Notes: generated by a model not told the origin, from the sequence alone. Shown: positions 3,679 through 18,982, numbered from the stretch's first letter. The stretch is 57,834 nucleotides of DNA from Calidithermus chliarophilus DSM 9957 (GCF_000430045.1 NZ_KE387023.1:77027-134860), one strand, 5' to 3'. Numbers and translations are program-made.

Positions 3679-5025
3679 ATGGAGCTGACCTCAACCCTAT
3701 CGCGCGACCTCGTGCTCGAGGTCTCCAAGAACCTGGGCGAGCCCACCTGGCTGCTCGAGCAGCGCCTGGCCGCCTGGGAAACCTTCGCCAAGCTGCCCTA
3801 CCCCACCACCCGCACCGAGGAGTGGAAGTACACCGACATCACCGAAGTCCCCTTCGAGGGGCTGGCGCTCGAGCAGCCCGCCGGCGCCCCCCTGCGCTCC
3901 CGCGAGGAGCTGCCCGAGGCCGTGCAGGCGCGCATCGCGCAGGCCGACCTGGCGGGCTTCGCGGTGTTCGTGGGGCCCGATCTGGTCTACGCCGAGCTGC
4001 CTGAAGAGCTCACGCGGCAGGGCGTGGTGCTCACCAGCCTGCACCAGGCCCTACGCTCGCACCCCGAGCAGGTGCAGGCCGCGCTGTTCAAGGCCGTGAA
4101 CTGGTCGGACCTGGTGGGCACCCAGCAGAACCGGCCCGACAACAGCAAGCTCCCCGCGCTGAACGCGGCGCTCTTCACCCACGGGGTCTTCCTCTACGTG
4201 CCGCGCGGCGTGGAGTTCAGCAAGCCGTTGGGCGTGTTCAAGTACCTCGAGGGCGGCAAGCTCTCGGCGGGCCGCACCCTCGTGGTGAGCGGGGCCAACA
4301 GCCAGGCGGTCTACATCGAGGAGTACGTCTCGCCCGCGCAGGTGCCGGCCTCGGTCAACCTCTCGGCCACCGAGATCGTGCTGGACAGCGGGGCCAAGGT
4401 GCGCCATGCCCACGTCCAGACCCTGGGCGAGGGCTTCTACCACTTCCACCGCCAGCGGGCCCACCTCGGCCGCGACGCCGCGCTCAACGACCTCGTGGTC
4501 AACATGGGCGCCACCATCAGCCGCGCCGACGTGCAGTCGCAGATGCTGGGGGCGGGCTCGTACTCGGAGATGCTGGGCCTGTACTTCACCGCCGGCAACC
4601 AGCACGTCGACCACTACACCCTCCAGCACCACGTCGCCGACCACGCCTACTCCGACGTGCTCTACAAGGGCGCGGCCAAGGACCAAAGCCGCACGGTCTA
4701 CGCCGGGCTGATCAAGCTCGAGCCCGGCGCGCAGAAGACCGACGCCTACCAGACCAACCGCAACCTGCTGCTCTCCCCCGACGCCCGCGCCGACAGCGTG
4801 CCGCAGCTCGAGATCGGCGCCAACGACGTCAAGTGCTCGCACGGCTCCTCCACCGCGCCCGTGGACGCGACGCAGCTTTTCTACCTCATGAGCCGCGGCC
4901 TGCCCCGGCACGTCGGGCAGCAGATCCTGGTCAAGGCCCACCTCGCCGACGTGCTCAGGCGCATCCCGCTCGAGGCCCTGCGCGCGCACATCGAGGGGAT
5001 CATCGAGGAGAAGGTCAAACTCTAA
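3679..5025 (+). CDS. sufD: SufD, Fe-S scaffold subunit
   Basis: Paralogue of SufB and partner in the SufBC2D complex. The 448-aa protein shares the beta-helix core and the MSRGLPRHVGQQILVKAHL C-terminal helix. KCSHGSSTAPVD places a His (about residue 388) where SufD has its conserved cluster-site His. The family gives SufD a role in iron entry. The start is ATG 3679, with no strong Shine-Dalgarno but GTGGAGAAACG upstream. The TAA at 5023-5025 is three bases from a long inverted repeat (copy B). Order and strand fit one operon with sufC and sufB. Confidence 0.96.
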   Translation: MELTSTLSRDLVLEVSKNLGEPTWLLEQRLAAWETFAKLPYPTTRTEEWKYTDITEVPFEGLALEQPAGAPLRSREELPEAVQARIAQADLAGFAVFVGPDLVYAELPEELTRQGVVLTSLHQALRSHPEQVQAALFKAVNWSDLVGTQQNRPDNSKLPALNAALFTHGVFLYVPRGVEFSKPLGVFKYLEGGKLSAGRTLVVSGANSQAVYIEEYVSPAQVPASVNLSATEIVLDSGAKVRHAHVQTLGEGFYHFHRQRAHLGRDAALNDLVVNMGATISRADVQSQMLGAGSYSEMLGLYFTAGNQHVDHYTLQHHVADHAYSDVLYKGAAKDQSRTVYAGLIKLEPGAQKTDAYQTNRNLLLSPDARADSVPQLEIGANDVKCSHGSSTAPVDATQLFYLMSRGLPRHVGQQILVKAHLADVLRRIPLEALRAHIEGIIEEKVKL

Positions 5026-5027
5026 TG

Positions 5028-5103
5028 CCTAACGCCCAACGCCGAAGGCCGAATGCCAGAGAAGCTCAGGGTTTTGGCGTTTAGCGTTGGGCGTTAGGCG
5101 TTC
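5028..5103. repeat. composite repeat copy B, heptamer module only
   Basis: A 15-bp perfect inverted repeat: CCTAACGCCCAACGC at 5028-5042 and GCGTTGGGCGTTAGG at 5084-5098. It is built from the same AACGCC/GGCGTT units as the larger composite repeats. It lies between sufD and the Rieske gene and could form a hairpin in the mRNA. It lacks the GC-rich palindromes and the GTCGATAG module. Confidence 0.75.
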
Positions 5104-5112
5104 GACTTCGCT

Positions 5113-5415
5113 ATGTGGATCCCCGTCGCCAACCCCGAAGACTTCGTGAACGGCCGCCTGGTGGTCAAGGTGGAGGGCGAGAAGACCCCCGTTCTGCTGC
5201 TGCTGGTGGACGAGGAGGTCTTCGCCATCTCCGACATCTGCACCCACGACAAGAACCCGCTCTCCGACGGGCCGCTCGAGGGGCACACCATCAAGTGCAC
5301 CCGCCACGGCGCCCGCTTCGACATCCGCACCGGCAAGCAGACCATGCCCGCCCCGCGCCCGGTGAAGGCGTACAAGGCCAAGCTGGAGGACGGGAAGGTC
5401 TGGCTCGAGGTCTAG
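5113..5415 (+). CDS. Rieske [2Fe-2S] ferredoxin-like protein in the suf operon
   Basis: A 100-aa single-domain Rieske protein with ligands Cys43 and His45 (ICTHDKNPL) and Cys62 and His65 (KCTRHGARFD), the CxH...CxxH pattern of Rieske clusters. Its size and the RHGARFDIRTG segment resemble ferredoxin subunits of ring-hydroxylating dioxygenases and NirD-like proteins. No oxygenase or reductase partner lies nearby, so it is probably an electron carrier linked to Fe-S assembly. That role is inferred from position alone. It is soluble, with no signal peptide or transmembrane segment. The start ATG 5113 lies just after repeat copy B with no clear ribosome binding site, which raises the possibility of weak translation or a local promoter. 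Confidence 0.88.
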   Translation: MWIPVANPEDFVNGRLVVKVEGEKTPVLLLLVDEEVFAISDICTHDKNPLSDGPLEGHTIKCTRHGARFDIRTGKQTMPAPRPVKAYKAKLEDGKVWLEV

Positions 5416-5477
5416 CTTTCCGCCGGGGGACGCCGCCAGCCGGCCCCAACCTGGACCAAAAGCTCCGACAAAAGTCC

Positions 5478-5509
5478 CCGGCCCCCTTGCCTAAGCTGAA
5501 GGGGGCCGG
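5478..5509. terminator. strong hairpin between the Rieske gene and sufS
   Basis: CCGGCCCCCTT (5478-5488) pairs with AAGGGGGCCGG (5499-5509), an 11-bp perfect stem with a 10-base loop. No T-run follows, so it may be a stabiliser or an attenuating hairpin rather than an efficient terminator. A TAGAAT -10-like box (5536-5541) downstream suggests that sufS-sufU can also be transcribed separately. Confidence 0.5.
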
Positions 5510-5578
5510 CCCACACCCCTCCCGCCGAACGCGGGTAGAATTGGGCAAGCCCTCCACAGCCCCCGAAGGGAGACCACC

Positions 5579-6802
5579 ATGCCCCTTACCCTCGAGTCCA
5601 TCCGTCAGGACTTCCCGCTGATCGCGGGGAGGCCCGACCTGGTCTACCTCGACTCCACCGCCAGCAGCCAGAAGCCCCAGGCGGTGATCGAGGCGATGTC
5701 GCGCTTCTACCGCGAGTCCTACGCCAACGTGCACCGCGGAGCCTACTCGCTCTCCTTGGCCGCCACCGACGCCTACGAGCAGGCCCGCCACACCCTGGCC
5801 CGCTTCATCGGGGCCGAGCCCGAAGAGGTTATCTTCGTCCGCAACACCACCGAAGCGCTCAACCTGGTGGCCTACGCCTGGGGCCTGCACAACCTGCGCG
5901 AGGACGACGAGATCTTGCTCACCGAGATGGAGCACCACGCCAACCTGGTGCCCTGGCACCTGGTGGCCCGGCGCACCGGCGCCCGCATCAAGGCCATCCC
6001 CGTCACGCCGGAGGGGCGGCTCGAGCTCGCCGCGCTGGACGAGCTGCTCACCGAGCGGGTGCGGGTGGTAAGCCTGGTGCACATGTCCAACGTGCTGGGC
6101 ACGGTCAACCCGGTGGTCGAGGTCGCGCGGCGGGCCAAGGCGGTGGGGGCGCTGGTGGTGGTGGACGGGGCGCAGTCGGCCCCGCACCTGCCCGTGGACG
6201 TGAAGGCCCTGGGGGCCGACTTCTTCGCCTTCTCCGGGCACAAGATGTGCGGCCCGACCGGCGCCGGGGTGCTGTGGGGCCGCGCCGAGGTGCTGCAGGA
6301 CCTCCCGCCCTTCCTGGGCGGGGGGGACATGATCCTCGAGGTCCACCTCGATCGCTCGACCTACGCCAAGCCGCCCCAGCGCTTCGAGGCGGGCACCCCG
6401 CCCATCGCCGAGGCCATCGCCCTGGGCGCGGCGGCCGAGTACCTGATGGGGGTGGGCATGGAGCGCGTCTGGCAGCACGACCGGGCGCTGCTCGAGCACT
6501 GCCTGGCTCGCCTGGACGCCGAGCTCCCCGAGGTCCGGACCTTCGGCCCGCGCGGGGAGGACCGGGGCGGGGTGGTGGCCTTCAGCCTGGGCGACCTGCA
6601 CGCCCACGACGTGGCCTGCGCCCTCGACCAGCACGGCATCGCGGTGCGGGCCGGGCACCACTGCGCCCAGCCCCTGCACCGCAAGCTGGGCCTGGCCTCG
6701 ACCGCGCGGGCCAGCTTCTACCTCTACACCACCTTCGAGGAGGTGGACCGCTTCGTCGAGGGGCTCAAGCAGGTGCGGGAGTTCTTCAAGGACTGGCTGT
6801 AG
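5579..6802 (+). CDS. sufS: SufS, cysteine desulfurase
   Basis: PLP enzyme that removes sulfur from cysteine as a persulfide for Fe-S assembly. The 407-aa protein has the PLP-binding Lys222 in FAFSGHKMCGPTGAG and the active-site Cys362 in RAGHHCAQPLHRKLG, the group II (SufS) arrangement. The N-terminal FPLIAGRPDLVYLDSTASSQKP is typical of SufS. The start ATG is preceded by GAAGGGAGACC. It follows a hairpin and a possible own promoter, and sufU begins three bases after its stop. This gene pair matches the SufS-SufU partnership of bacteria that lack SufE. Confidence 0.96.
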   Translation: MPLTLESIRQDFPLIAGRPDLVYLDSTASSQKPQAVIEAMSRFYRESYANVHRGAYSLSLAATDAYEQARHTLARFIGAEPEEVIFVRNTTEALNLVAYAWGLHNLREDDEILLTEMEHHANLVPWHLVARRTGARIKAIPVTPEGRLELAALDELLTERVRVVSLVHMSNVLGTVNPVVEVARRAKAVGALVVVDGAQSAPHLPVDVKALGADFFAFSGHKMCGPTGAGVLWGRAEVLQDLPPFLGGGDMILEVHLDRSTYAKPPQRFEAGTPPIAEAIALGAAAEYLMGVGMERVWQHDRALLEHCLARLDAELPEVRTFGPRGEDRGGVVAFSLGDLHAHDVACALDQHGIAVRAGHHCAQPLHRKLGLASTARASFYLYTTFEEVDRFVEGLKQVREFFKDWL

Positions 6803-6805
6803 GGG

Positions 6806-7231
6806 GTGCGCGTGAGCCTGCTCGAGGAGCTGTACAAGGAAATCCTGCTGCGCCACTACAAGCGGCCCCTCAACTTCGGGGTGCTGGAGAACCCCACCGT
6901 GCGCCAGCCCGGCGTCAACCCCTCCTGCGGCGACAGCCTCGAGCTCGAGCTGCGCCTGGAGGACGGCCGCATCGCGGAGGCGGCCTGGAAGGGCCAGGGC
7001 TGCGCCATCAGCATGGCCTCGGCCTCGCTGATGAGCGAGCTGATCAAGGGCCAGACCCTGCCGCAGGCGCTCGAGCTCGCCCGCAAGTTCAAGGCCATGG
7101 TCGTCGAGGGGGCCGAGCCCGCGCCCGAGCTGGGCGACCTCAGGGCGCTGGCCGGGGTCCACAAGCTGCACGCGCGGGTCAAGTGCGCCACGCTGGCGTG
7201 GAACGCGCTCGAGGAGGCGCTCAAGCCCTGA
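6806..7231 (+). CDS. sufU: SufU, zinc-dependent sulfurtransferase
   Basis: Accepts persulfide from SufS and passes it to SufBCD. The 141-aa IscU-like protein keeps the zinc and sulfur ligands Cys41 and Asp43 (NPSCGDS), Cys66 (GQGCAIS) and Cys127 (KCATLAW). It has the insertion relative to IscU that is typical of SufU. The start is GTG 6806, three bases after sufS; GTG 6812 in the same frame is an alternative. It ends the operon, since the next gene has its own promoter-like box. Confidence 0.94.
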   Translation: MRVSLLEELYKEILLRHYKRPLNFGVLENPTVRQPGVNPSCGDSLELELRLEDGRIAEAAWKGQGCAISMASASLMSELIKGQTLPQALELARKFKAMVVEGAEPAPELGDLRALAGVHKLHARVKCATLAWNALEEALKP

Positions 7232-7245
7232 CGTATCATGGCCGC

Positions 7246-7494
7246 ATGTACCGACCGCGCGCGGGGCTGGTGGTCACCGACCTGGGGCAGGAGCTGGTGC
7301 TCCTCGACAGCGCCAGCGGCAAGATGTACAGCCTCAACGCCACCGGCGGTCTGGTCTGGCGGCACCTGCACGACCTCGAGCGCGCCCGCCGGGCGCTGTG
7401 CGAGGCCTACGCCATCCCCCCCGAACAGGCCCAGGCCGACGTGGAGAAGCTGCTCGAGCACCTGCTGCGCCAGCGCCTGATCGAAGATGCTTGA
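7246..7494 (+). CDS. PqqD-family leader-peptide-binding protein (RRE / B1-like)
   Basis: An 82-aa protein of the PqqD fold, the RiPP recognition element that binds precursor leader peptides. It has the typical short strand pattern VVTDLGQELVLLDSASGKMY, then SLNATGGLVWRHL and a C-terminal helical part. Discrete proteins of this kind serve as B1 in lasso-peptide pathways and as the peptide chaperone of HPr-rel-A systems. TATCAT (7234-7239) lies six bases before ATG 7246, a leaderless-type promoter. Its 3' end overlaps the start of the HprK-like kinase by 8 bases, so the two are co-translated. Its likely partner is the 49-aa peptide at 9829. Confidence 0.85.
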   Translation: MYRPRAGLVVTDLGQELVLLDSASGKMYSLNATGGLVWRHLHDLERARRALCEAYAIPPEQAQADVEKLLEHLLRQRLIEDA

Positions 7495-8401
7495 GCTGAC
7501 GCTGCTGGCCTGCCGGGTGCGGGCCGCCGTAGACGGGCGCTGGGCCGCCTGGCTGGAGGAGCGCCTGGCCTTTCCCCACCCCGTCCTGCCCTCACGCCAC
7601 ACGCTGGAGGTCGCCCAGCTCGCCGCGCCGCCGGAGGGCGCGGGGGTGCTCGAGGCGGCGGATCCGTTGGCGCTGTTCCGCGGGCACAGCGGCTGGGTGA
7701 ACCGCGACCCGCTGTTCTGGCTGGGGAGCCCCCAGGGCGGGGTGCGGCTCGAGGCCACCGAGCGGCACACGCGGCTGGAGTTCTGGGGCCAGGGCCCCGA
7801 CCTGCCCGAGCTGGTGCTGCTGGGCCTGAGCGAGGGGCTGCGGGTGGCGGGGCTGCTGCCGGTCCACGCCGCCGGGGTCGTGCGCGACGGGAGGGTTTTG
7901 CTGCTGCTGGGCCCCAGCGGCACCGGCAAGACGACCACCCTGGTGCGGGCATTGCAGGCGGGGTGGCAGCCGGTGGCGGAGGACTTCCTGCTGCTCGAGG
8001 CCGAGGGCGCCACGGCCTACGGCATGGACCGGGGCCTGCGCCTGTGGCCCGACAGCCTCGAGCTGCTGCGCGAGGTCTATCCCCAGGCCGAGGGTGAGTG
8101 GCAGCAGGGCAAGTGCTTCATGCCCTACCAAAGCCTGGGGCTAGCACCCCAGTCGGGCCGGGTGGGTGGGATGGCCCTGCTGCTGCGGCAACCGGCCCGA
8201 CCCTCGGGCTGGGAGCCCGCCAGCCCGCGCCAGGCCACCCTAGCCCTGTGGCGGGCCACCGGCCTGCCCCTCTCCCGCCTGGGCCAGCGGCGGGTCGCGC
8301 AGGCGGTCCAGGGTCTAGTGCCGCGGCTCCGCTGCCGCTTCCTCGAGCTGGGGCAGGGCCCGCTCCCCCTGGGGGAAGCGGAACTGCTCGCGAAAGAGTA
8401 G
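7487..8401 (+). CDS. HprK-related P-loop kinase of a RiPP-like locus
   Basis: A 304-aa protein with a Walker A loop GPSGTGKT (residues 142-149) in LLLLGPSGTGKTTTLVRALQ, preceded by LLPVHAAGVVRDGRVLLL and followed by VAEDFLLLE. This layout is that of HprK-related kinases that accompany PqqD proteins. In paeninodin-type lasso clusters such kinases phosphorylate the precursor; in HPr-rel-A systems the substrate is unknown. It overlaps the PqqD gene by 8 bases. Its last 87 bases lie antisense to the end of the nucleotidyltransferase-B2 gene, an unusually long convergent overlap. The substrate is not determined by sequence. Confidence 0.8.
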   Translation: MLELTLLACRVRAAVDGRWAAWLEERLAFPHPVLPSRHTLEVAQLAAPPEGAGVLEAADPLALFRGHSGWVNRDPLFWLGSPQGGVRLEATERHTRLEFWGQGPDLPELVLLGLSEGLRVAGLLPVHAAGVVRDGRVLLLLGPSGTGKTTTLVRALQAGWQPVAEDFLLLEAEGATAYGMDRGLRLWPDSLELLREVYPQAEGEWQQGKCFMPYQSLGLAPQSGRVGGMALLLRQPARPSGWEPASPRQATLALWRATGLPLSRLGQRRVAQAVQGLVPRLRCRFLELGQGPLPLGEAELLAKE

Positions 8402-9664
8402 GGGGGCTTGCTCGTCCCCCGGGAGCGGCACCCCCTCGAGCTCGACCCAGGCGTGGCTCTCGAGCCCGCGCTCCCCCCGCCGCACCCCGCTGACGAAGGC
8501 CACCTCGAGCCCCGCCCCCTTCAGCGCCCGGTACAGCGCCGCCGAGCGCGGCAGGCAGGCGTCCTTGCGGCACCCCAGCAGCCACAAAGCCCAGCGGACC
8601 CCCCGCAGCACCCGGGCCCAGGAGACTCCCCGACGCTCGAGCGGCTGCGCCAGGCGGGTCACGAGGTCCCCGATCGAGGCGCCTTCCCGCAGGGCCGAGT
8701 GGACCTCGAGCACCCCCGGCAGCTCCCGCAACACGTCGGCGGCGACGGCGGGGAGGCTGACCAGGCGCTGCAGGTTGACCTCGGCGGCCTTGGAGCCGAC
8801 CTCGCCCAGGGTGAGCAGTTCCCACCCCCCCGCCCGCCAGCCGCGCACCGGGAACTGCCGCAACCGCCCCTCCCAGGGGTCGCAGTAGCGCAGCCACAGC
8901 TCGAGGGTGCGCCTCAGACGCAGCTCGGCGGCCCGCCGGCGCACGTCGGCGGGCTCGAGGCCGTGGCGCTGCACCAGGTAGCGGGCGTCGAGGTAGTCGT
9001 GGGGCTTGAGGGCGAAGCCGTCGCCCCGGACGCGGTTGGCCACCAGCCCTACCAGCAGGGCGTCGGCGGGCCGCATCAGGCGGAGGGGAACCCCGTCCCA
9101 CTCGGCCCGTACCGAAGCTTCCCACACCGCACGGGTCAGGCGGGCGGGCGCCCCCAGGAAGCAGTGCGCCTGCACCGGGTGGCGGTGCAGCTCCAGCCGC
9201 ACCAGCCCCCCATCGGGCGAGCGCAGCACCGCCTCCTCGTGGGAGAAGGGCAGCTCGGCCCGGCGGAACAGCGCCCTCCAGCCCGCCCCCCGGGCCAGCT
9301 CGAGCGCCCGGGGCGCCTCCTCCGGGCGGATGAGCAGGTCCACGTCGCCGTAGAAGCGCATCCCCGGGCGGGGGTAGACCGTCTGGGCCAGCGCGAAGCC
9401 CTTGTAGGGCATGGGCTCGAGGCCCGCCCCGGCCCAGGCCCGCATGAGCCCCAGGACCTGCCGGCGCACCTGCTCGTGCCTCAGCTCCGCGCCCAGCGCC
9501 GGGGCCTTCAGGGAGGCCCGCAGGGGGTCGCCCGGGGGGAGAGTGTGGTAGAAGTAAGCCTCCAGGCGGAATTTCCGGACGAGCTCGAGGTCGGGTGGCC
9601 CCCCGGCCAGCAGCAGGGCGTGAAGCCTGTCGGGGCCGTCGGCGGGGCGGGGGGCACGTTTCAC
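8315..9664 (-). CDS. nucleotidyltransferase fused to lasso-type B2 leader peptidase
   Basis: A 449-aa two-domain protein. Residues about 1-300 form an NTP_transf_5-type nucleotidyltransferase with PYKGFALAQTVYPRPG (about 86-101) and GDVDLLI (106-112), the metal-binding acidic strand. Residues about 330-449 form a transglutaminase-like B2 domain with Cys370 (KDACLPRSAALYRAL), His404 (LESHAWVELEG) and Asp417 (LPGDE), the triad expected of lasso-peptide leader peptidases. Both domains are known in lasso and HPr-rel-A clusters, usually as separate genes. The start is GTG 9664; an upstream ATG runs into a stop. It is divergent from the precursor-like peptide at 9829, with TATGCT (plus 9688-9693) as a possible -10. 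Confidence 0.82.
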   Translation of the reverse strand: MKRAPRPADGPDRLHALLLAGGPPDLELVRKFRLEAYFYHTLPPGDPLRASLKAPALGAELRHEQVRRQVLGLMRAWAGAGLEPMPYKGFALAQTVYPRPGMRFYGDVDLLIRPEEAPRALELARGAGWRALFRRAELPFSHEEAVLRSPDGGLVRLELHRHPVQAHCFLGAPARLTRAVWEASVRAEWDGVPLRLMRPADALLVGLVANRVRGDGFALKPHDYLDARYLVQRHGLEPADVRRRAAELRLRRTLELWLRYCDPWEGRLRQFPVRGWRAGGWELLTLGEVGSKAAEVNLQRLVSLPAVAADVLRELPGVLEVHSALREGASIGDLVTRLAQPLERRGVSWARVLRGVRWALWLLGCRKDACLPRSAALYRALKGAGLEVAFVSGVRRGERGLESHAWVELEGVPLPGDEQAPLLFREQFRFPQGERALPQLEEAAAEPRH

Positions 9665-9828
9665 AGCATTTTCTCACGTTGATGTTAGCATAGGGCGTCT
9701 CACCCGTCGGTTTTTGGACGCCTCCCCGCGATCTGAGCCGAACGGCAGGGCTGCAAAGAAGTCGGGGCCAGGGCTGCCGCACCGGCCACCGACGCGACCC
9801 GAGCAAACCGTGCGGCAGGAGGTCTGGC

Positions 9829-9978
9829 ATGGACACCGAGCGCAAGGAGCCGCCACAGGCTCGAGCGGAACACCCGATCCCCCAACCCCTCCCCCCCCTC
9901 TACGAGCCGCCGCGCCTCGAGGAGCACGGGGAATGGCAGCACGTCACCGGCCTCTCCCTGCCCATCGGGGAGCCGTGA
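9829..9978 (+). CDS. 49-aa lasso-type precursor-like peptide
   Basis: A small ORF with a perfect AGGAGGT Shine-Dalgarno (9817-9823) five bases before ATG 9829. The product has a Pro-rich N-terminal part, then Tyr25, Pro28, Leu30, Gly34 and Thr40 in the exact spacing YxxPxLxxxGxxxxxT. That is the leader motif bound by B1/RRE proteins in lasso-peptide systems. The tail after Thr40 is only nine residues, GLSLPIGEP. A Glu sits at position 8 of that tail, or 7 if the core starts one residue later. A PqqD protein, an HprK-like kinase and a B2 peptidase lie within 2.6 kb, but no asparagine-synthetase-like cyclase does. It is the strongest candidate substrate of this locus. Its mRNA may continue into the lipoprotein gene 78 bases downstream. 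Confidence 0.75.
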   Translation: MDTERKEPPQARAEHPIPQPLPPLYEPPRLEEHGEWQHVTGLSLPIGEP

Positions 9979-10055: not shown

Positions 10056-12902
10056 ATGAAGCTGAGATTATCCCCACTGCCGCTCGTGCTGCTGGCCCTG
10101 AGCGCCTGCACCCAGGGCCCCGCTACCCCGAAACAGCCCCCAGCCACCCCCCCCGCCTTCAAGCCGCGCCTGGTGGGGAGCCTCGAGGCCAGCTTCGACG
10201 CGGGCGCCCGGACCGCCCGCGCGACCTTCACCCCACTTAAGAAGCGCCGCCTGCTCGGCACCGCCGCCCTCGTCAACGAGGCCGACCTCAAGCTCACGCC
10301 CCTGAGCTTCACCGCCATCGACGCCGGCGGCGGCCAGCGCTTCCTCAACGCCACCTTCAAGGTGCAAAACCTCGGCGCCACCGGGCTCAACAACCTGACC
10401 CTCGTGGCCTACTACCGCAAAAAGCCGGGGGCCGAGAACGTCAACGGCAGCGCCTTCTTCGACATCCGCGACTTCGGCGGGGGCTCGAGCAACGCCGGCG
10501 AGTGGGCGCTGCGGCTACAGCCCGCGCACGGGATGAAGACCCAGGGCGCGGGCGTGACGGTGGACGACAGCCACGCCGACTTGCAGATCTTTACCCCCGC
10601 TCAGGCCGCCACGCTGCAAAGCGACGCCCAGAGCGCCGGGCTGATCAACGCCGGGGGGGTGACGGGCGAAACGGTGCTTCAGTACGGCTACGTCGTCCGC
10701 AATGCCGGCGGGGGCCGCGCCGTCGCGGGCAATTCCGACGCCAACAGCGTGACCGTGGCCCTCAAGGTGCCCACCGACGGCGACGCGGGCCCCAACAGCG
10801 CCTACCGCTACTCCATGACCTTCCTGGTCTTCGAGGACAACATCACCCGCGTGACGGAGAGCCTCGAGGAGCAGCCGGCCTCGGGGGTCGCGGCTCGAGC
10901 CAGCGCCGTCGGTGCGGCCCAGGTGGCGGTGATGTGCGGCACCGGCTACTCCGGGGCCAACCCCCTCTACGTCCCCGGCGTGACCCTCTCGGTGGGGAGC
11001 GCCGCCGCCTACGACCGCTGGATGGGCGGCGACTTCACGATCACCGGCAGCACCCCGCCCACGCTCGCCGTGACGGGCAACGTGCCCAAGACCTTCGCCG
11101 ACAGCGCCGTGCTGGGCAACTACCAGCCTTTGGGCGGGGCCACCCTGGCCGCCAACAACTTCGCCAGCACCGACCCCAACACCCTCACCGACGGCAGCGG
11201 CGCCTTCACCTTCACCCGTGCCGCCGGCCAGCGCACCGCCAGCAGCTTCACCTTCGGCGTCTCGGACGGCAGTTGCACCCTCCCCGGGCAGAGCGCCAAC
11301 GTCACGGTGAGCGGGATGTACTGGTTCGTCAAGAACGACGCCGGCGCGGGCAACGGCTCCTTCGCCAGCCCCTTCAACACCCTGGCCGCGGCCCAGGCGG
11401 CCTCCCAGGCGGGCGACGTGATCTTCGTGTACCGGGGGAACGGCACCAGCGCCGGCCAGAACGCGGGCATCACCCTCAAGAACGGCCAGAAGCTCATCGG
11501 GGAGGGGGCCGGGCTGACCGTCGACGCCGTGAACATCCCCGCCGGGGCCAGCCCGCTGATCGGGAACGCCGCCGGGGCGGGCGTCAGCCTGGCCCAGGAC
11601 AACGAGGTCAGGGGCCTCGACGTCGGCGGGACCTCCGGCGGCCTCACCGGCTCCAACTTCGGCACCCTCACGGCCTCGAGCCTCTCGGTGACGGCCAGCG
11701 CCGGCCCGGCCCTCAACCTCAGCAACGGCAACCTCGCCGCGACCTTCCGCAGCCTCAGCTCGAGCGGGGGCGCCAACAACCTGGCCCTCTCGAACACCAC
11801 CGGCAGCCTCACCGTCACCGGCGACGGCTCGACGGCGGGCAGCGGCGGGACGCTGCAGAACGCCTCCGCTGAGGCGGTGAAGCTCAGCAACCCGGGCAGC
11901 GTCACCCTGCGCTTCGTGAATGTCAAGAACAGCGGCACCCACGCCGTGAGCTTCACCGCCAGCAGTGGCACCCAGGGCCTCACCCTGCAAAACGCCGTGG
12001 TCGAGTCGGCGGGTCAGGGCGGAGGCATCTCGGGGCACGGGGTCCTGGCCGACGTGACGGGCAGCGGGACCGTCGCCAGCCTCAGCCTCAGCGGCTCGAC
12101 CCTCCGCCAGCACGAGCAGAGCGGGATGTTCGTGTGGGGCAGGCCCGGCTCCAACGCTACCGTGCACCTCACCGCCACGGGCAACACCTTCCAGAACAAC
12201 GCCGCCAACGGGCTCGACCTGGTGCTCGAGAGCAGCGGGGCCAGCACCTACACCGTCTCCAACAACACCCTCACCAACGCCCCGAGCCTCTACGGGGGCA
12301 TCACGGTGCGCACCGAGGTCGCCGGGAGCAGCCCCCTCATCCAGGGCCGGATCAGCGGCAACACCTTCGACCTCAACCCCGGCACGGCCTCGAGCAGCGC
12401 GGGCAGCGTGGGCATCCTCGTCGAGATGAACGGCAGCGAGACCTCGAGGCTCGAGCTGAGCGGGAACAACCCCATCCGCGACTACGACACCTACGGGGTG
12501 GGGGTGTCCACCGGCAGCACCACCGGCGGACGCCTCGACCTCACCCTCAGCAACAACGACGTCAGCAACCCCAGCGACCCCGGCAACCTCGCGCTCCGGG
12601 GCTTCAACCTCCACGCCGGCAGCACCACCACCGCCGGCGGGAGCAACCGCAGCACCCTGTGCCTGAACATGACCGGCAACACCACCCCGGCCAACACCGG
12701 GGCTTACCAGGGCGCCCGGCTGCGCCAGTTCAGCGGCCACAACTTCCTCATCCAGGGCTTCAGCGGCCCCGGCACCGACGCCGGCACTGTGCAGAGCTAC
12801 GTGCAGGGGCAGAACCCGGCCTCCGCGGTCAACGTCCACGCCGCCGGCACCGGCACCGTGGTCAACTACGCCGGCGGCACCTGCACCCCCCCCAGCTTCT
12901 GA
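10056..12902 (+). CDS. large beta-helix lipoprotein
   Basis: A 948-aa exported protein. It begins with a lipoprotein signal, MKLRLSPLPLVLLALSAC, with Cys18 as the lipidation site. Residues about 25-290 form a domain shared with the lipoprotein at 16272-17198: LTPLSF, VQNLGATGLNNLTL, LQYGYVVR and YRYSMTFLVFEDNITRVTESL all have counterparts there. From about residue 430 the sequence turns into a repetitive Asn, Gly, Ser and Thr-rich right-handed beta-helix, opened by NGSFASPFNTLAAAQAASQA and rich in SNNTLTN-like turns. Such proteins are usually surface or secreted. The start is ATG 10056; upstream codons in the same frame do not look coding. Three tail-collar genes follow at once. Function is unknown; adhesion or carbohydrate binding is a guess. 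Confidence 0.85.
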   Translation: MKLRLSPLPLVLLALSACTQGPATPKQPPATPPAFKPRLVGSLEASFDAGARTARATFTPLKKRRLLGTAALVNEADLKLTPLSFTAIDAGGGQRFLNATFKVQNLGATGLNNLTLVAYYRKKPGAENVNGSAFFDIRDFGGGSSNAGEWALRLQPAHGMKTQGAGVTVDDSHADLQIFTPAQAATLQSDAQSAGLINAGGVTGETVLQYGYVVRNAGGGRAVAGNSDANSVTVALKVPTDGDAGPNSAYRYSMTFLVFEDNITRVTESLEEQPASGVAARASAVGAAQVAVMCGTGYSGANPLYVPGVTLSVGSAAAYDRWMGGDFTITGSTPPTLAVTGNVPKTFADSAVLGNYQPLGGATLAANNFASTDPNTLTDGSGAFTFTRAAGQRTASSFTFGVSDGSCTLPGQSANVTVSGMYWFVKNDAGAGNGSFASPFNTLAAAQAASQAGDVIFVYRGNGTSAGQNAGITLKNGQKLIGEGAGLTVDAVNIPAGASPLIGNAAGAGVSLAQDNEVRGLDVGGTSGGLTGSNFGTLTASSLSVTASAGPALNLSNGNLAATFRSLSSSGGANNLALSNTTGSLTVTGDGSTAGSGGTLQNASAEAVKLSNPGSVTLRFVNVKNSGTHAVSFTASSGTQGLTLQNAVVESAGQGGGISGHGVLADVTGSGTVASLSLSGSTLRQHEQSGMFVWGRPGSNATVHLTATGNTFQNNAANGLDLVLESSGASTYTVSNNTLTNAPSLYGGITVRTEVAGSSPLIQGRISGNTFDLNPGTASSSAGSVGILVEMNGSETSRLELSGNNPIRDYDTYGVGVSTGSTTGGRLDLTLSNNDVSNPSDPGNLALRGFNLHAGSTTTAGGSNRSTLCLNMTGNTTPANTGAYQGARLRQFSGHNFLIQGFSGPGTDAGTVQSYVQGQNPASAVNVHAAGTGTVVNYAGGTCTPPSF

Positions 12903-12914
12903 AGGAGGCCACCC

Positions 12915-13415
12915 GTGTCCGATCCCTTCCTCGCCGAGATCAAGATCGTGAGCTTCGACTTCGCCCCGCAAGGCTGGGCGAGGTGCGACGGCCAGCTCCT
13001 GCCCATCAGCCAGAACACCGCGCTGTTCTCGCTGCTGGGCACCACCTACGGGGGCGACGGGCGCACCACCTTCGCCCTGCCCGACCTGCGGGGGCGGGTG
13101 CCCTTCCACGTAGGCGGCGGCTTCGTCCAGGGCCAAACCGGGGGTGAGGAAAACCACACCCTGACCCTGAGTGAGCTCCCTGCCCACACCCACAACCTCC
13201 AGGCCAGCACCGCCGCCGCCAGCAGCGTGTTCCCGGCGAACAACGCCCTGGCCCAAGGCAGCGCTCCCCTTTACGGCCCGGCCAACAACCTCGCCCCGCT
13301 GGGCGTGCAGAGCGTCGGCGAGGCGGGCGGGTCGCAGCCGCACGAGAACATGCAGCCCTACCTGGTGCTCAACTTCGTCATCGCGCTCCAGGGCATCTTC
13401 CCTCCGAGGGACTGA
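12915..13415 (+). CDS. tail-collar (MdpB-like) protein 1
   Basis: A 166-aa protein of the phage tail-collar / microcystin-dependent protein family. Signatures are APQGWARCDGQLLPI, SLLGTTYGGDGRTTFALPDL, RGRVPFHVG and the C-terminal GGSQPHENMQPYLVLNF. Chromosomal sets of two or three such genes are common in bacteria without other phage genes nearby; their role is not established. The start is GTG 12915 with AAGGAGG upstream. It is the first of three tandem copies, 12 bases after the beta-helix lipoprotein, and clearly shares its operon. Its N-terminal half is nearly identical at the DNA level to collar 3. Confidence 0.9.
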   Translation: MSDPFLAEIKIVSFDFAPQGWARCDGQLLPISQNTALFSLLGTTYGGDGRTTFALPDLRGRVPFHVGGGFVQGQTGGEENHTLTLSELPAHTHNLQASTAAASSVFPANNALAQGSAPLYGPANNLAPLGVQSVGEAGGSQPHENMQPYLVLNFVIALQGIFPPRD

Positions 13416-13422
13416 GGTCGCT

Positions 13423-13941
13423 ATGTCGCAACCGTTTGTCGGTGAAATCCGGATGTTCGCGGGGAACTTCGCCCCGCAAGGCTGGGCGTTTTGCGACGGC
13501 TCGATCCTACCCATCAACCAATACGACGTCCTCTTCAGCCTCATCGGCACCACCTACGGGGGGGACGGGCAGACCGATTTCGCCCTCCCCGACCTGCGTG
13601 GGCGGGTCCCGATCCACGTGGGCGCGGCGCCGGGCGGCCAATTCCGGCTTCTGGGGGAAGCAGGCGGCGCGGAAACGGTGACGCTGAGCGTCCAGCAGAT
13701 CCCCAGCCACAGCCACGGCCTGCTGGCCTCGAGCGACACCGCCACCCAGACCGCCCCGGCTTCGAACGTGCTGGCCCAGCCGGTTGGCGGCCAGCTCTAC
13801 CTGGCCGACGCCCCCAGCGTGAGCTTGAACGCCGCGTCGCTGGCCCCGGCGGGCGGCAGCCAGCCCCACGACAACATGGGGCCTTTCCTGTGCGTCAACT
13901 TCATCATCTCGCTGTTCGGGATCTACCCGTTCCGGGCCTGA
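13423..13941 (+). CDS. tail-collar (MdpB-like) protein 2
   Basis: A 172-aa second copy, with APQGWAFCDGSILPI, SLIGTTYGGDGQTDFALPDL, RGRVPIHVG and GGSQPHDNMGPFLCVNF. It differs from copies 1 and 3 in the Asp for Thr change after GGDGQT, in the middle region and in the C-terminal ISLFGIYPFRA. The start is ATG 13423, seven bases after the collar 1 stop. It is probably a subunit of the same assembly as its neighbours. It shows less DNA identity to copies 1 and 3 than those show to each other. Confidence 0.9.
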   Translation: MSQPFVGEIRMFAGNFAPQGWAFCDGSILPINQYDVLFSLIGTTYGGDGQTDFALPDLRGRVPIHVGAAPGGQFRLLGEAGGAETVTLSVQQIPSHSHGLLASSDTATQTAPASNVLAQPVGGQLYLADAPSVSLNAASLAPAGGSQPHDNMGPFLCVNFIISLFGIYPFRA

Positions 13942-13951
13942 GGAGGCTAGC

Positions 13952-14467
13952 GTGTCCGACCCTTTCATAGCGGAAATCCGCATCGTAGGCTTCCAATTCG
14001 CCCCCAGGGGCTGGGCGAGGTGCGACGGCCAGCTCCTGCCCATCAACCAGAACACCTTGCTGTTCTCGCTGCTGGGCACCACCTACGGGGGCAACGGGCG
14101 CACCACCTTCGCCCTGCCCGACCTGCGGGGCCGTGCGCCCGTGCAGCCCGGTCAGGGGCCGGGCCTCAGCAACCGCACCCTGGGCCAGAGCGGGGGCTCG
14201 CAGACCGTGACCCTGCTGCAAACCCAGATCCCCGCGCATAACCACGCCCTCCGGGCCGTCAACGACCTAGCCGACAGCAGCAACCCCGGCGGGAGCCTGG
14301 CCAGGGCGGCCGGCGTGCAGCCCTACGGCACGGGCAGCCCCAACGCCGTGCTCGCGCCGCAGTCGGTCGGGGCGGCCGGGGGGAGCCAGCCGCACAACAA
14401 CCTCCAGCCCTACCTGATGCTCAACTTCGTCATCGCCCTGCAGGGCGTCTTCCCCCAGAGGTCGTGA
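13952..14467 (+). CDS. tail-collar (MdpB-like) protein 3
   Basis: A 171-aa third copy, with GWARCDGQLLPINQNTLLFS, LLGTTYGGNGRTTFALPDL and GGSQPHNNLQPYLMLNFVIA. The start is GTG 13952 with GAGGAGGC upstream. The stretch around 14010-14137 is almost the same DNA as 12973-13100 in collar 1, which suggests recent duplication or gene conversion. The middle region, with VQPGQGPGLSNRTLGQS, is its own. Its stop lies one base before the next ATG, so the binding protein follows in the same operon. Confidence 0.9.
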   Translation: MSDPFIAEIRIVGFQFAPRGWARCDGQLLPINQNTLLFSLLGTTYGGNGRTTFALPDLRGRAPVQPGQGPGLSNRTLGQSGGSQTVTLLQTQIPAHNHALRAVNDLADSSNPGGSLARAAGVQPYGTGSPNAVLAPQSVGAAGGSQPHNNLQPYLMLNFVIALQGVFPQRS

Positions 14468-14468
14468 C

Positions 14469-15485
14469 ATGGCGACGCGTCGCAACTTCTTCAAAACCGT
14501 CCTCGGCCTGGGCGCGGGCGCTTCGGCGTTCGGCCTAGCGCAGCAGGCCCGGCCGAAGCTGCGGGTAGGCGTGCTGGCCCCGGCGGGGGCGAAGGGCTTT
14601 CGGGCGGCCCTCGAGCGCTCGGGCGGCGAGGGTGTGGAATGGCTGCACCGGGCCATCGGGGCCACCCCCCGTTCCGCCGTGCGGGAGGCCCGGGAACTGC
14701 TCGAGGCCGGGGTTTCGGCGCTAGTCGCCCTGGGCGACGGGCTCGAGGAGGCCCTGCGCCCCCTGGCCGAGGAGCACGCCGCCGTGCTGATCCTGAGCGA
14801 GGTGGGCGTGCTGATGCCGCGCCGGGTGGCCCCAGGCGTTTTCGTCTTCAGAAACTCCCTGCGGCAGTGGCAGGCCGAGTGGGCCATGGGCGCGTGGAGC
14901 GCGGCGCACCGGGGCCCGACCGCCGTGGTGGTGACGGGCCTGCTCGAGGCCGGCTACGACCTGCCCTACGCCTTCCGCTCGGGCTTCGAGGCGGCGGGCG
15001 GGCGGGTGCTGGCGACACTGGTCAGCGACGCGGCCACCGGGAAGCACGACTTCGCCTCGGCGCTCGCCCAGGTCCGCTCGCTGGGCCCCGCCACGGTCCA
15101 CCTCATCGGGAGCAGCCGGGAGGGGCTGGAGTTCGCCCAGCACTGCCCGAACGTCACGGTCAGCGGGTTCAGCCTGGGGGCGCTGCCCAGCGCTTTACAA
15201 GGAGCCTACGGCGCGACCACCGCGCCCGGCCAGGACGGGCTCGAGGCCCTCGGGCAGCGGGCGGGAGCCTGGCTTAAAGCGGCGGCGGTGCGGGCGGGCT
15301 CGAGGGGGCTGCTGGCCGCCCTGCGCGAGACCGCCCGCACCGACCCGATCTTCCTCAGCCGGGTCCAGGGCGGCGAGCGCGTCAAGCTGGAACAGCTCGC
15401 CGAGCCCCCGGCGCACCACCCCGCGCTGCTCAGCCTCGCCGCGCACCCCCGCAGCGGCTGGACCAACCTGTACCCCCATGTTTGA
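14469..15485 (+). CDS. Tat-exported ABC-type substrate-binding protein
   Basis: A 338-aa protein with a twin-arginine signal, ATRRNFFKTVLGLGAGASA, and a two-lobed periplasmic-binding fold of the branched-chain amino acid or ABC-substrate type. Examples are RVGVLAPAGAKGFRAALERS, VVVTGLLEAGYDLPYAFRSG and VSDAATGKHDFASALAQVRS. No ABC permease or ATPase is next to it, so it may act as a sensor or scaffold for the collar cassette rather than in transport. It begins one base after the collar 3 stop and overlaps the GNAT gene by 8 bases. The ligand is unknown. Confidence 0.82.
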   Translation: MATRRNFFKTVLGLGAGASAFGLAQQARPKLRVGVLAPAGAKGFRAALERSGGEGVEWLHRAIGATPRSAVREARELLEAGVSALVALGDGLEEALRPLAEEHAAVLILSEVGVLMPRRVAPGVFVFRNSLRQWQAEWAMGAWSAAHRGPTAVVVTGLLEAGYDLPYAFRSGFEAAGGRVLATLVSDAATGKHDFASALAQVRSLGPATVHLIGSSREGLEFAQHCPNVTVSGFSLGALPSALQGAYGATTAPGQDGLEALGQRAGAWLKAAAVRAGSRGLLAALRETARTDPIFLSRVQGGERVKLEQLAEPPAHHPALLSLAAHPRSGWTNLYPHV

Positions 15486-15969
15486 AACCCCCGCCGGAGT
15501 CGTACGCCTGCGCCCTGAAACGCCGGAGGACCTCCCCTTCCTCCGGCGCCTGTACGCCAGCACCCGCGAGGAGGAGCTGGCCCCGGTGCCCTGGACCCTC
15601 GAGCAGAAGCAGGCCTTCCTCGAGTCCCAGTTCGAGCTGCAGCACCGCCACTACCGCGAGCACTACGCCGGGGCGCGTTTCGACGTGGTTGAGCTGGAGG
15701 GCCAGCCCGTCGGGCGGATCTACGTCCACCGCACGCCCCAGGAGGTCCGCCTCATGGACATCGCCCTGCTGCCGGAGCACCGGGGAAAAGGCATAGGGGG
15801 GATGCTGATGGGCAACCTGCTCGAGCAGGCCCGGCGGGCGGGCCAGAGCGTCACCCTGCACGTCGAGGAGAACAACCCGGCCCGCCTGTGGTACGAGCGG
15901 CTGGGCTTCGAGAGGCTCGAGGAGCGCGGGGTCTACTGGTTCATGCGCTGGAGGGCGGCCCCCGGCTAG
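15478..15969 (+). CDS. GNAT-family N-acetyltransferase
   Basis: A 163-aa acetyltransferase. The acetyl-CoA loop appears as LLPEHRGKGIGGMLMGNLLE and the C-terminal part as NNPARLWYERLGF, both classic GNAT features. The start ATG 15478 overlaps the end of the binding-protein gene by 8 bases, so translation is coupled. GNAT genes recur beside tail-collar gene sets in other bacteria, as far as I recall. The substrate cannot be told from the sequence. It ends four bases into the convergent DUF6916-like gene. Confidence 0.88.
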   Translation: MFETPAGVVRLRPETPEDLPFLRRLYASTREEELAPVPWTLEQKQAFLESQFELQHRHYREHYAGARFDVVELEGQPVGRIYVHRTPQEVRLMDIALLPEHRGKGIGGMLMGNLLEQARRAGQSVTLHVEENNPARLWYERLGFERLEERGVYWFMRWRAAPG

Positions 15970-16271: not shown

Positions 16272-17198
16272 CTACGGCAGCAAGTAGGTGGGCGCGGTGC
16301 CGATGCGCAGGTTCTCCAGCCGCACCACCCCGATACCGGCCCCGGCGGGGTTGTCGGCGTCGGGGCCGACCAGGACCAGTTGCACGGGCCGCTCGGCACC
16401 CGCCAGGCCCCGGGCGCGGCCCAAAGCCTGCGCGGTGGTCTCGCCCAGCGCCCGGCTGACGCGGGTGAGGGGCATCTCCCCGACCAGGAAGGTCGCCTTG
16501 AAGCGGTAAGGCTTGGGCTCGCCGGGGAAGGTGCGGGGCAGGCGGAAGGCCACGCTGAGGGTTCCCGCTTCCCCCGGCCCCAGCCGCCGCCCGTCGCCCG
16601 GGGCGTCCCGGGCGGTAAAGCCGTAGTCGAGCACCGCGTCGGCGGCGGCGATCAGGCCCAGGGCGCGGGCCCTGCCCTCGAGGCCCGCGCTCTCGGCCAG
16701 GGCGAAGGCCTGGAAGTCGCTGTTGAGCGGGTCGGGCTGTGGCGCGGCGACGCCCATCACGGTGGCCTGGACGGGCCGGAAGCTCCGGGCCACGCCGGGG
16801 TCGGCGATCTCCTGCCCGTCGGGGAAGGCAGCGTCGGGGAAGGCCCGGACCTCCCGGATCGCCGTGCCGCCCGCGTTGCCCGCCCGGGCATAGGCTTGCA
16901 GGGTGAGGTTCTCCAGCGGCACGCTGCCCAGGTTCTCGACCCGGTAGGTGAGGGTGAGGTAGCGCACGCCCTCGCCGAGGGCGTCGAGGTCGGTGTAGGA
17001 CAGCGGGGTGAAGCGCACGGTCCGGCTGCTGTCGAGCAGGCTCTGCCAGGAGGTGGTGTCCCAGGCCAGGGTGACGCTGCCGAAGGGCTCGAGCGCGGCG
17101 GTCGCGGGGGGCCTCGAGCAGGCCGCCAGCAACCCCAGGAGCCCCAGCAGCGCGGCCCGCAGTGCCGCCGGCCCAAATCCTGCGGCGGGGGCGCTCAA
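16272..17198 (-). CDS. lipoprotein related to the N-terminal domain of the beta-helix lipoprotein
   Basis: A 308-aa exported protein. I place the start at TTG 17198: GAGGAGGAG lies just upstream, and the codon overlaps the TGA of the ABC exporter gene by two bases. The signal RAALLGLLGLLAAC has a lipobox Cys. The mature part mirrors residues about 25-290 of the lipoprotein at 10056-12902: RFTPLSY, VENLGSVPLENLTL, LDYGFTAR and YRFKATFLVGEMPLTRVSRAL. It lacks any beta-helix. It is downstream of the exporter, which may export it or its partners, and just upstream of the DUF6916-like gene. The function is unknown. Confidence 0.8.
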   Translation of the reverse strand: MSAPAAGFGPAALRAALLGLLGLLAACSRPPATAALEPFGSVTLAWDTTSWQSLLDSSRTVRFTPLSYTDLDALGEGVRYLTLTYRVENLGSVPLENLTLQAYARAGNAGGTAIREVRAFPDAAFPDGQEIADPGVARSFRPVQATVMGVAAPQPDPLNSDFQAFALAESAGLEGRARALGLIAAADAVLDYGFTARDAPGDGRRLGPGEAGTLSVAFRLPRTFPGEPKPYRFKATFLVGEMPLTRVSRALGETTAQALGRARGLAGAERPVQLVLVGPDADNPAGAGIGVVRLENLRIGTAPTYLLP

Positions 17199-18982
17199 TC
17201 CTCCTCCTCGCGGAATTGCAGCTCGTAGAGGTCGCGGTACAAGCCGCCCGCCGCCAGCAACTCCTCGTGGGTGCCCTGCTGCACCACCCGGCCGTCCTCG
17301 AGCACCACGATCATGTCGGCGCGGCGCACCGTGGAGAGGCGGTGGGCGATGACGAAGGTGGTGCGGCCTCGCATCAGGGTCTCCAGGGCTTCCTGCACCA
17401 GCATCTCCGACTCGGAGTCGAGGGAGCTGGTGGCCTCGTCGAGGATGAGGATGCGGGGGTTCTTGAGCAGCGCCCGGGCGATGGCGATGCGCTGCCGCTG
17501 CCCGCCCGAGAGCTTGACCCCGCGCTCGCCCACCAGGGTGCCGTAGCCCTCCGGGAAGGCGCTGATGAAGTCGTGGGCGTTGGCGGCCTTGGCCGCCGCC
17601 ACGATCTCGGCCTCGCCGGCCCCGGGGCGGCCGTAGCCGATGTTCTCGGCGATGGAGCCGGAGAAGAGCAGGGTCTCCTGCGGCACGGTGCCCACGTGCG
17701 AGCGCAGCTCGCGCAGGGAGACCTCGCGCACGTCGAGGCCGTCTATGGTGATGCCGCCGCCGGTCACGTCGTAGAAGCGGGGGATCAGGGCCACAAGCGT
17801 GCTCTTGCCCGCGCCGCTGGGGCCCACGACGGCCACCACCTGGCCGGGCTTGGCCTCGAGGCTCACCCCCCGCAGCACCTCCCCCCGCTCGCCGTAGCCG
17901 AAGCGCACGTTCTGGAAGCGGACGTGCCCCTGCACCGCGCTCAGCGGCTTGGGGTGGGCGGGCTCGGGCAGGTCGGGGCGCTCGTCGAGGAGCTCGAAGA
18001 TGCGGCTGCTGGCCCCCAGCGCGCTCTGGAGCTGGGTGAAGATGCCGGTGAAGGTGCCCACCGTGGCCGCGATGTTGAAGGTGTAGAGCACGAAGGTGAA
18101 GAGCTGGCCCGGCCCGATCTCCTTCAGCGCCACCAGCCGCCCGCCGTACCACAGCACCAGCCCCAGCGCGGCGAAGATGGCGAAGAAGACGACGGGGTTG
18201 AGCACGGCCCCCAGCAGCGCGCGGCGCATGGCGACCTGGAAGGACTTGCCGATGAGCTGGCCGTAGCGCCGGGTCTCCTGCGGCTCGGCCGTGAAGGACT
18301 GCACCACCCGGATGCCCGAGAGGGTCTCCTCGGCGCGGGCGTTGGCGTCGGCCACGCGGTCCTGGAACTCCTTGGAAGCCCGCCGGATCATGCGGCCCAG
18401 GAAGATCGCGGCCAGGATCACCACCGGCACCACCGCCAGGATCAGCGCGGTGAGCTTCCAGTTGGTGAGGAAGAGGATCGCCAGGGTGCTCACCAGCACC
18501 AAAGGCTGGGTGAAGAGCTGGACGAGGGTGCTCGAGACCACCGCCTGCACGGTGGAGATGTCGGAGGTCAGGCGGCTGGTGATGTCGCCGGTCTTGTTGC
18601 GCTCGAAGAAGCGCGGGGAGAGGGTGAGCAGGTGGGCGTAGAGCGACTTGCGCAGGTCGGCCACCACCCCCTCGCCCGCGCGGGCCACCAGGTAGCTCTG
18701 CACCCCGCTGAAGACGGCCTGCCCCGCGAAGACCCCGAGCAACACGAACAGGAGCTGGTCGAGGCGGGCGAGGTTGGCCTCGAGGAAGGACACGTCGATG
18801 AGGCGGCCCACCACCTGGGGAAAGATCAGGTTGAAGGCGGTGGAGACCAGGCTGGCGAGCCCGGCCACCACCAGGCCCCAGCGGTAGGGCCTCGTGTAGG
18901 CCAGCAGGCGGCGCAACTGGCCCAGGTCGCGGCGGCTGGGGGGGCGGGCGGGCTCGCGGCGGCTGCGCGGCAGCGAAAACAT
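17195..18982 (-). CDS. ABC-type exporter, fused membrane and ATPase domains
   Basis: A 595-aa half-transporter of the ABCB/MsbA type. The N-terminal part (about 1-330) has six membrane helices, and the C-terminal part is the ATPase. Walker [10 protein letters not shown] lies near residue 387, followed by the Q-loop [11 protein letters not shown], signature LSGGQRQR (about 490), Walker [13 protein letters not shown] (about 505) and H-loop AHRLST. The family exports lipids, drugs or peptides. Since the locus holds lipoproteins and a RiPP-like peptide, a peptide or lipid substrate is possible but not shown. The start is ATG 18982. Its stop overlaps the TTG start of the lipoprotein, so they form one operon. 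Confidence 0.93.

Follow-up and report, generated by a model that had tools for sequence, protein, structure and literature searches.

A probable precursor peptide of a cyclase-less RiPP-like family, encoded beside lipoprotein genes in Calidithermus chliarophilus and other Deinococcota

Introduction

The described systems closest to the locus considered here are the linear polyphosphorylated peptides (LPPs), cyclase-less products of Bacillota described in 2026 (PMC13381572), and the lasso peptides of the paeninodin and pseudomycoidin type, which combine B1 and B2 proteins, an HprK-like kinase and a nucleotidyltransferase (PadeK, PsmK, PsmN) with a [Y/W]xxPxL leader. The locus lies on a stretch of 57,834 nt from Calidithermus chliarophilus DSM 9957 (GCF_000430045.1, NZ_KE387023.1:77027-134860), the whole of which was analysed and is called the window below. 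Its central element is an open reading frame (ORF) of 49 aa at 9829-9978 on the + strand, which probably encodes the precursor of a Deinococcota family resembling ribosomally synthesized and post-translationally modified peptides (RiPPs), with leader-cleaved linear peptides as products. An earlier note, made from the sequence alone, had placed a PqqD-type RiPP recognition element (RRE), an HprK-like kinase, a protein with a B2 leader-peptidase domain and the 49-aa ORF within 7246-9978, and the family profiles PF05402, TIGR04352, PF14907 and NF033537 bear out this arrangement.

With LPP systems the locus shares a stand-alone RRE, an HprK-like kinase, an NTP-transferase and the lack of a cyclase, and an MsbA-like exporter is also encoded in the window. 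The leaders are alike (YxxPx[V/L]..H......T), and cleavage after the Thr would leave a Ser at core position 3, as in LPPs. When compared with the LPP motif YxxPxVLxHQxIxFETxxS, the window peptide fits the spacing of Tyr, Pro, Leu (in place of Val), His, Thr and Ser; among its relatives HQ is found only in genome G055, and the Ser of the Deinococcus members stands one residue later. A linear and possibly phosphorylated product made without a cyclase, as envisaged in the earlier note, is in agreement with the LPP family (PMC13381572).

There are also differences. The LPP peptidase LppS is a SipW-like signal peptidase, whereas here a B2 cysteine peptidase is fused to a nucleotidyltransferase (NTase), and LPP cores are longer (45 aa in the studied case). 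LPPs have been reported as restricted to Bacillota and as lying near capsule genes, whereas the present systems are from Deinococcota, are paired with lipoproteins of one type (LPN, see below) and often have several precursors per enzyme set. No SpI-like leader peptidase was found among the genes identified between 7.2 and 19 kb of the window, or in the annotated Deinococcus radiodurans locus. Because the LPP peptidase is SpI-like and LPPs have been reported from Bacillota only, we regard the locus as a related variant rather than a member of that family. It would add a cyclase-less, B2-processed branch to the lasso and LPP RiPPs, in a phylum where LPPs were reported absent.

The precursor ORF and its homologues

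The ORF at 9829-9978 (translation MDTERKEPPQARAEHPIPQPLPPLYEPPRLEEHGEWQHVTGLSLPIGEP) is preceded by the Shine-Dalgarno sequence AGGAGGT (9817-9823, + strand), 5 nt ahead of the ATG, and its GC content per codon position (0.82/0.47/0.88) is similar to that of the neighbouring genes. Tyr25, Pro28, Leu30, Gly34 and Thr40 have the exact spacing of YxxPxLxxxGxxxxxT, a motif found once in the six-frame translation of the window and absent from all 40 windows simulated with a Markov model. Both the ribosome binding site and the motif are thus as the earlier note had described them. The leader reads YxxPxLxxHGxW...VT and is followed by a short core, GLSLPIGEP, which contains the conserved Ser43 and has 9 residues provided that cleavage follows Thr40.

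A hidden Markov model for which 11 peptides from Deinococcus plasmids were the sole input matched the window ORF with E=5.2e-8, the runner-up among 1067 six-frame segments of the window having E=0.7. When it was run on a further 371 kb of related DNA, the top 14 matches were all precursor or leader ORFs. A total of 21 homologous precursors, most of which keep the Tyr, Pro, Trp, Thr and Ser, were gathered across Deinococcota, including those on plasmids of D. radiodurans (MP1, 2), D. gobiensis, D. ficus (2), D. psychrotolerans, D. wulumuqiensis, Deinococcus sp. QL22 (2) and Deinococcus sp. KNUC1210 (3). Searching 111 genomes with a profile brought 4 more from G052 and a second copy each from G055 and G056. 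The order- and class-level searches covered these same 111 genomes and gave no precursor matches from Deinococcus species, which were reached through plasmid records only; viral contigs and phage records were also searched, and yielded nothing. In G055 an ORF beginning MPPEDLQKQFYTPPQLEAHQWKFVTGGTTLPIGTN lies immediately 5' of the equivalent lipoprotein gene, with whose start codon its stop codon overlaps, and is clearly the same gene as the window precursor.

A 12-member alignment shows no variation at Tyr25, Pro28, Trp36 and Thr40 and very little at Gly34, Ser43 and Gly47; position 30 is Leu, Val or Ile. A loss of the Tyr, Pro, Leu, Gly and Thr positions in homologues, which according to the earlier note would refute its proposal, is thus not what the alignment shows. 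The family shares the core motif S-[LIVF]-P-x-G, with most cores longer than that of the window, for example IYSLPIGPGG... in D. radiodurans and GVSLPIGLN... in the second G055 copy. GLSLPIGEP is therefore a shortened form of this conserved core; the nine-residue core proposed earlier stands if the leader is cleaved after Thr40, and is shorter than is usual in the family.

The lasso leader model NF033521, of 20 aa, aligns to residues 25-40, and the ORF is its sole match at E<=1 across the 4.69-Mb genome. Its score of 16.7 bits is under the cut-off of 19, which would be weak support if taken alone, and only 2/12 precursor-family members match it at E<=1. That low score is what speaks for an origin of the ORF by chance, an explanation with next to no probability given the match to an independent profile, the conserved position, the ribosome binding site and the codon pattern, and one that the homologues refute. 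The 49-aa ORF is a real gene and belongs to a previously undescribed short-peptide family of bacteria that resist heat and radiation.

A promoter-like element, TGTTAGCATAGG, lies ahead of the precursor (9683-9694, + strand) and contains the only exact GTTAGCATAGG in the window. The same element is found among the last bases of a G011 contig, after the HprK gene (L046:6134-6145), and it may serve as a promoter.

Two further observations concern Deinococcus plasmids. MP1 of D. radiodurans (L161, NC_000958) carries two precursor-family ORFs, at 78605-78766 and about 82450-82633. Both are unannotated in the reference MP1 record examined, and the gene for the ExeM/NucH nuclease overlaps with the first of them, so that this model species has two such precursors, one of them linked in this way to a nuclease. 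Plasmid unnamed9 of KNUC1210 carries at least 3 precursors (L164 at 18886 and 30441; L165 at 32225), each in a TGATG overlap with a lipoprotein gene.

Modifying enzymes

The first gene of the locus (7246-7494, + strand, overlapping the kinase gene) encodes a PqqD-family, B1-like stand-alone RRE (PF05402, E=1.4e-17). When its family profile was compared with the PDB, only the RRE structures TfuB1, PbaB1, TbiB1 and LppB were matched. Asp65 is invariant in 7 homologues and aligns with an Asp of LppB, TbiB1 and TfuB1, which in LppB is the Asp preceding IEAF; PbaB1, a Trp binder, has Gln at this position. By the numbering in PMC13381572 (D70, F74), this Asp of LppB is the one binding the leader Tyr. 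Motif, fold and conserved Asp together suggest that the PqqD protein binds the leader of the precursor.

The adjoining gene (7487-8401, + strand) encodes an HprK-like kinase that is predicted to phosphorylate the precursor. It matches TIGR04352 at E=1e-8, under the cut-off, the best PDB matches of its family profile are HPr kinase/phosphorylase, and His127, Lys148 and Glu165-Asp166 are invariant in 8 homologues. An HprK-related kinase next to a PqqD-family protein is also characteristic of the HPr-rel-A and SynChlorMet cassettes (NCBIfam TIGR04352/04353 and TIGR04248/04249). The window and D. radiodurans proteins differ from these in falling under the curated cut-offs; in the window the scores are 34.6 and 25.7 bits for TIGR04352 and TIGR04353 against cut-offs of 200 and 35.

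On the opposite strand (8315-9664, - strand), one gene encodes an NTase (PF14907, E=1e-28) joined to a leader peptidase domain of the B2 type, and its product scores 42.2 bits with NF033537, over the cut-off of 33. The NTase motifs KGF and GDxD and the B2 residues Cys370 and His404 are invariant in 9 homologues. PDB matches to TAL effectors, obtained with the single PqqD protein and with the NTase-B2 profile, consisted of many weak stretches and were discarded as repeat artefacts.

The fused NTase-B2 is rare, being found in 2/50 genomes of the family and, as a full-length fusion-type match, in 5 of the 111 genomes of the class (G000, G011, G052, G055 and G056). Partial matches elsewhere belong to NTases of other clusters, some of them true lasso-type with asparagine-synthase genes. 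Precursor matches at E<1e-3 are confined to G000, G052, G055 and G056, all of which carry the fusion (co-occurrence, Fisher p=8e-7), and the PqqD-HprK gene pair is present in the genomes that have both. In G011 no precursor is visible because the expected site falls in an assembly gap: contig C42 ends about 20 nt past HprK, and C3 begins inside the lipoprotein gene. The gene order in G011 otherwise repeats that of the window, with the lipoprotein, three collar proteins, a substrate-binding-like protein and GNAT on one contig and PqqD-HprK at the end of another. On G052 contig C551 the precursor adjoins PqqD-HprK, and about 12 kb of D. radiodurans MP1 hold NTase-B2 (DR_RS15790), precursor a, the ExeM/NucH gene, precursor b and the genes for an Ig-like lipoprotein, S8 peptidase, HprK (DR_RS15810) and PqqD (DR_RS15815). 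Co-occurrence and the Asp shared with the Tyr-binding residue of LppB thus support the link between peptide and enzymes drawn in the earlier note.

Comparison with lasso peptides

The earlier note had called the precursor lasso-type. This holds for the leader, YxxPxL with a Thr near the cleavage site, and B1 (RRE) and B2 (Cys peptidase) are present as in lasso pathways. It does not hold for the remainder, since a cyclase is missing from the vicinity and a suitable acidic residue from most cores. Paeninodin and pseudomycoidin systems possess a macrolactam cyclase and an acidic residue in the ring, and they are phosphorylated at a C-terminal Ser; none of these three features is seen here. No asparagine-synthase-like macrolactam synthetase is present in the window locus or in the annotated D. 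radiodurans MP1 locus, and the genome's only near-full-length asparagine-synthase (lasso C-like) match lies at a distance of about 620 kb, so that the absence of a cyclase gene noted earlier is upheld. Lasso peptides also have an Asp or Glu at core position 7-9 and a threading tail; E48 of the window peptide would leave a tail of one residue, and most homologous cores have no acid at the ring-closing positions (e.g., D. radiodurans IYSLPIGPGGSRPTGGNSNVW). The classification as a true lasso peptide was dropped on these grounds. A lasso pathway that has lost its cyclase, or draws on one encoded at another place in the genome, would account for the leader, B1 and B2, and asparagine-synthase-like genes do occur in some order-level loci (G079, G102), but with no such gene beside the window or D. 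radiodurans locus, and with cores of this kind, we consider it very improbable.

Pairing with LPN lipoproteins

The closest functional partner of the peptide is probably encoded just outside the region delimited in the earlier note, by a lipoprotein gene downstream of the precursor (10056-12902, + strand). Its product has a signal peptide, a lipobox Cys, an N-terminal domain of about 270 aa (about residues 26-302) and a beta-helix-like remainder. The N-terminal domain, here named LPN, is shared with the other paired lipoproteins; a Pfam scan of the first 300 aa of the window protein matched no family. A lipoprotein gene with signal peptide, lipobox Cys and LPN lies directly downstream of 20/21 precursors, the sole exception being that on G052 contig C551. 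Several of the precursors came to light through inspection of the DNA 5' of lipoprotein genes, which biases this count in part; among the 11 found from the peptide sequence alone, 10 are paired.

LPN was present in every precursor-linked lipoprotein tested. A profile made from three proteins matched 13/15 others, and after iteration all of them, with no match to controls (S8 peptidase, other lipoproteins); the three-member profile is the fair test, because the iterated one contains its own members. Structure prediction of LPN from two sequences gave no reliable model (predicted local distance difference test score, pLDDT, 41). The C-terminal parts vary, comprising beta-helix, ExeM/NucH DNase, DRA0282-type DNA-binding, RCC1 repeat and lamin-tail types. 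The nuclease gene drb0067 is described as the only extracellular nuclease gene of D. radiodurans, and its loss is reported to raise sensitivity to H2O2 and gamma radiation (PMC3554781). As DR_RS15795 encodes an ExeM/NucH secreted nuclease on MP1, we infer that it is drb0067.

Precursor and lipoprotein genes overlap at stop and start (ATGA, TGATG) in 10/21 cases. This, and the shortness of the ORF in all cases, would fit a translational coupler or regulatory upstream ORF of the lipoprotein gene that is never processed by RRE, kinase or peptidase. Such an element would have no need of a conserved Tyr, Pro, Trp, Thr and S-x-P-x-G, or of occurring strictly together with NTase-B2, and in another 10 cases, the window included, the genes are separated by 41-265 nt; we therefore think a coupler quite unlikely. 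Alternatively, the enzymes might act on the lipoproteins or collar proteins, with the peptide merely a docking cofactor or bystander. The lipoproteins are the most constant partner and have one common N-terminal domain, and in G056 NTase-B2 adjoins another lipoprotein gene. The peptide, however, bears a standard RRE motif in its leader and a conserved core beyond it, and homologues of PqqD, HprK and B2 act on short precursors (PMC9266682, PMC13381572), which makes a lipoprotein target unlikely too.

The strict pairing of a peptide gene with a surface lipoprotein gene is, as far as we are aware, a new observation, and no mention of it was found in the literature searched. Because the precursor is nearly always directly upstream of an LPN lipoprotein gene, the two products are likely to be co-expressed and to function jointly at the cell surface. 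The modified peptide might not be a free natural product but might bind, be joined to, or license its own lipoprotein (DNase, DNA-binding or beta-helix), each translated with its own peptide; we offer this only as a tentative possibility. The tight pairing makes peptide function testable in a genetically tractable bacterium.

Proposed mechanism

In the precursor reading, which we favour, the stand-alone PqqD/RRE would bind the leader YxxPx[LV]xxxGxWxxVT. The HprK-like kinase would then phosphorylate a core hydroxyl, likeliest that of Ser43 in SLPIG, and by analogy with the LPP and paeninodin kinases the peptides of the family are probably phosphorylated on the core Ser. The NTase domain might add a further group onto the phosphate, as suggested by PsmN; this is the weakest step. 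The fused B2 cysteine-peptidase domain would take the leader off at or just after Thr40, and, as no cyclase acts, the product would be linear. It is proposed that in some genomes one set of RRE, kinase and NTase-B2 serves several precursors.

Phosphorylation, cleavage and nucleotidylation are carried over from the PadeK, PsmK and PsmN families (PMC9266682). Several points weigh against this scheme. The kinase has Glu165-Asp166 where characterised kinases carry Asp-Asp. The window core is just 9 residues long, Ser43 is 3 residues from the Thr whereas the distance is 4 in Deinococcus, and one G056 copy (L116) has neither the Tyr nor the Thr, nor any core Ser or Thr. The enzyme genes are unlinked to the precursors in G055 and G056, and no NTase-B2 turned up for KNUC1210, D. 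ficus or D. gobiensis, of which plasmid records but no chromosomes were searched.

Neighbouring genes and other loci

Downstream of the lipoprotein gene, on the + strand, are three genes for phage tail collar domain proteins (12915-13415, PF07484, E=6.5e-29; 13423-13941, E=8.5e-31; 13952-14467, E=1.1e-27), in an order kept in L006, L116, L117, L154, L157 and L159. They are followed by a substrate-binding-protein-like gene (14469-15485), whose counterparts in G011, G055, G056 and Deinococcus plasmids occupy the equivalent place, and by a GNAT acetyltransferase gene (15478-15969; PF00583, E=1.9e-16), which also keeps its position in related loci. The collar, substrate-binding and GNAT genes (12915-15969) are found only with the beta-helix type of LPN lipoprotein and are conserved across Deinococcota. 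A phage origin of the collar genes was considered and dropped, as they form a conserved chromosomal or plasmid module with the lipoprotein.

On the - strand, a candidate MsbA-like ABC exporter is encoded at 17195-18982 (TIGR02204, E=2.6e-193, sub-cut-off; PF00664/PF00005). By analogy with LPP systems, which count an MsbA-like transporter among their core genes, it may export the peptide; no such gene was seen beside the G011 genes. Downstream of it, a second LPN lipoprotein segment (16278-17039, - strand) is 35% identical to the LPN of the 10056-12902 product, with no precursor found in front.

A sister system is present at L051 (G096 contig C285, 2030-9953), L052 and L094, comprising PqqD, B2, a large lipoprotein, a precursor (LEYTPPKLQEHGNVEDVTLQTFFGTFSPP...), a small lipoprotein, an HprK-like protein, a radical SAM protein and NTase; its lipoproteins have no LPN domain. 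Finally, in the genus of the window, L149 (G003 contig C145, about 4665-7535) is a candidate RiPP cluster with genes for radical SAM, transglutaminase-like and PqqD proteins and a short ORF that ends MEKPAKTYEAPKLVPKYEPPVLLDLEQFVTVAGSCSTGGGSCSGSGYTPGGG and has two YxxPxL motifs.

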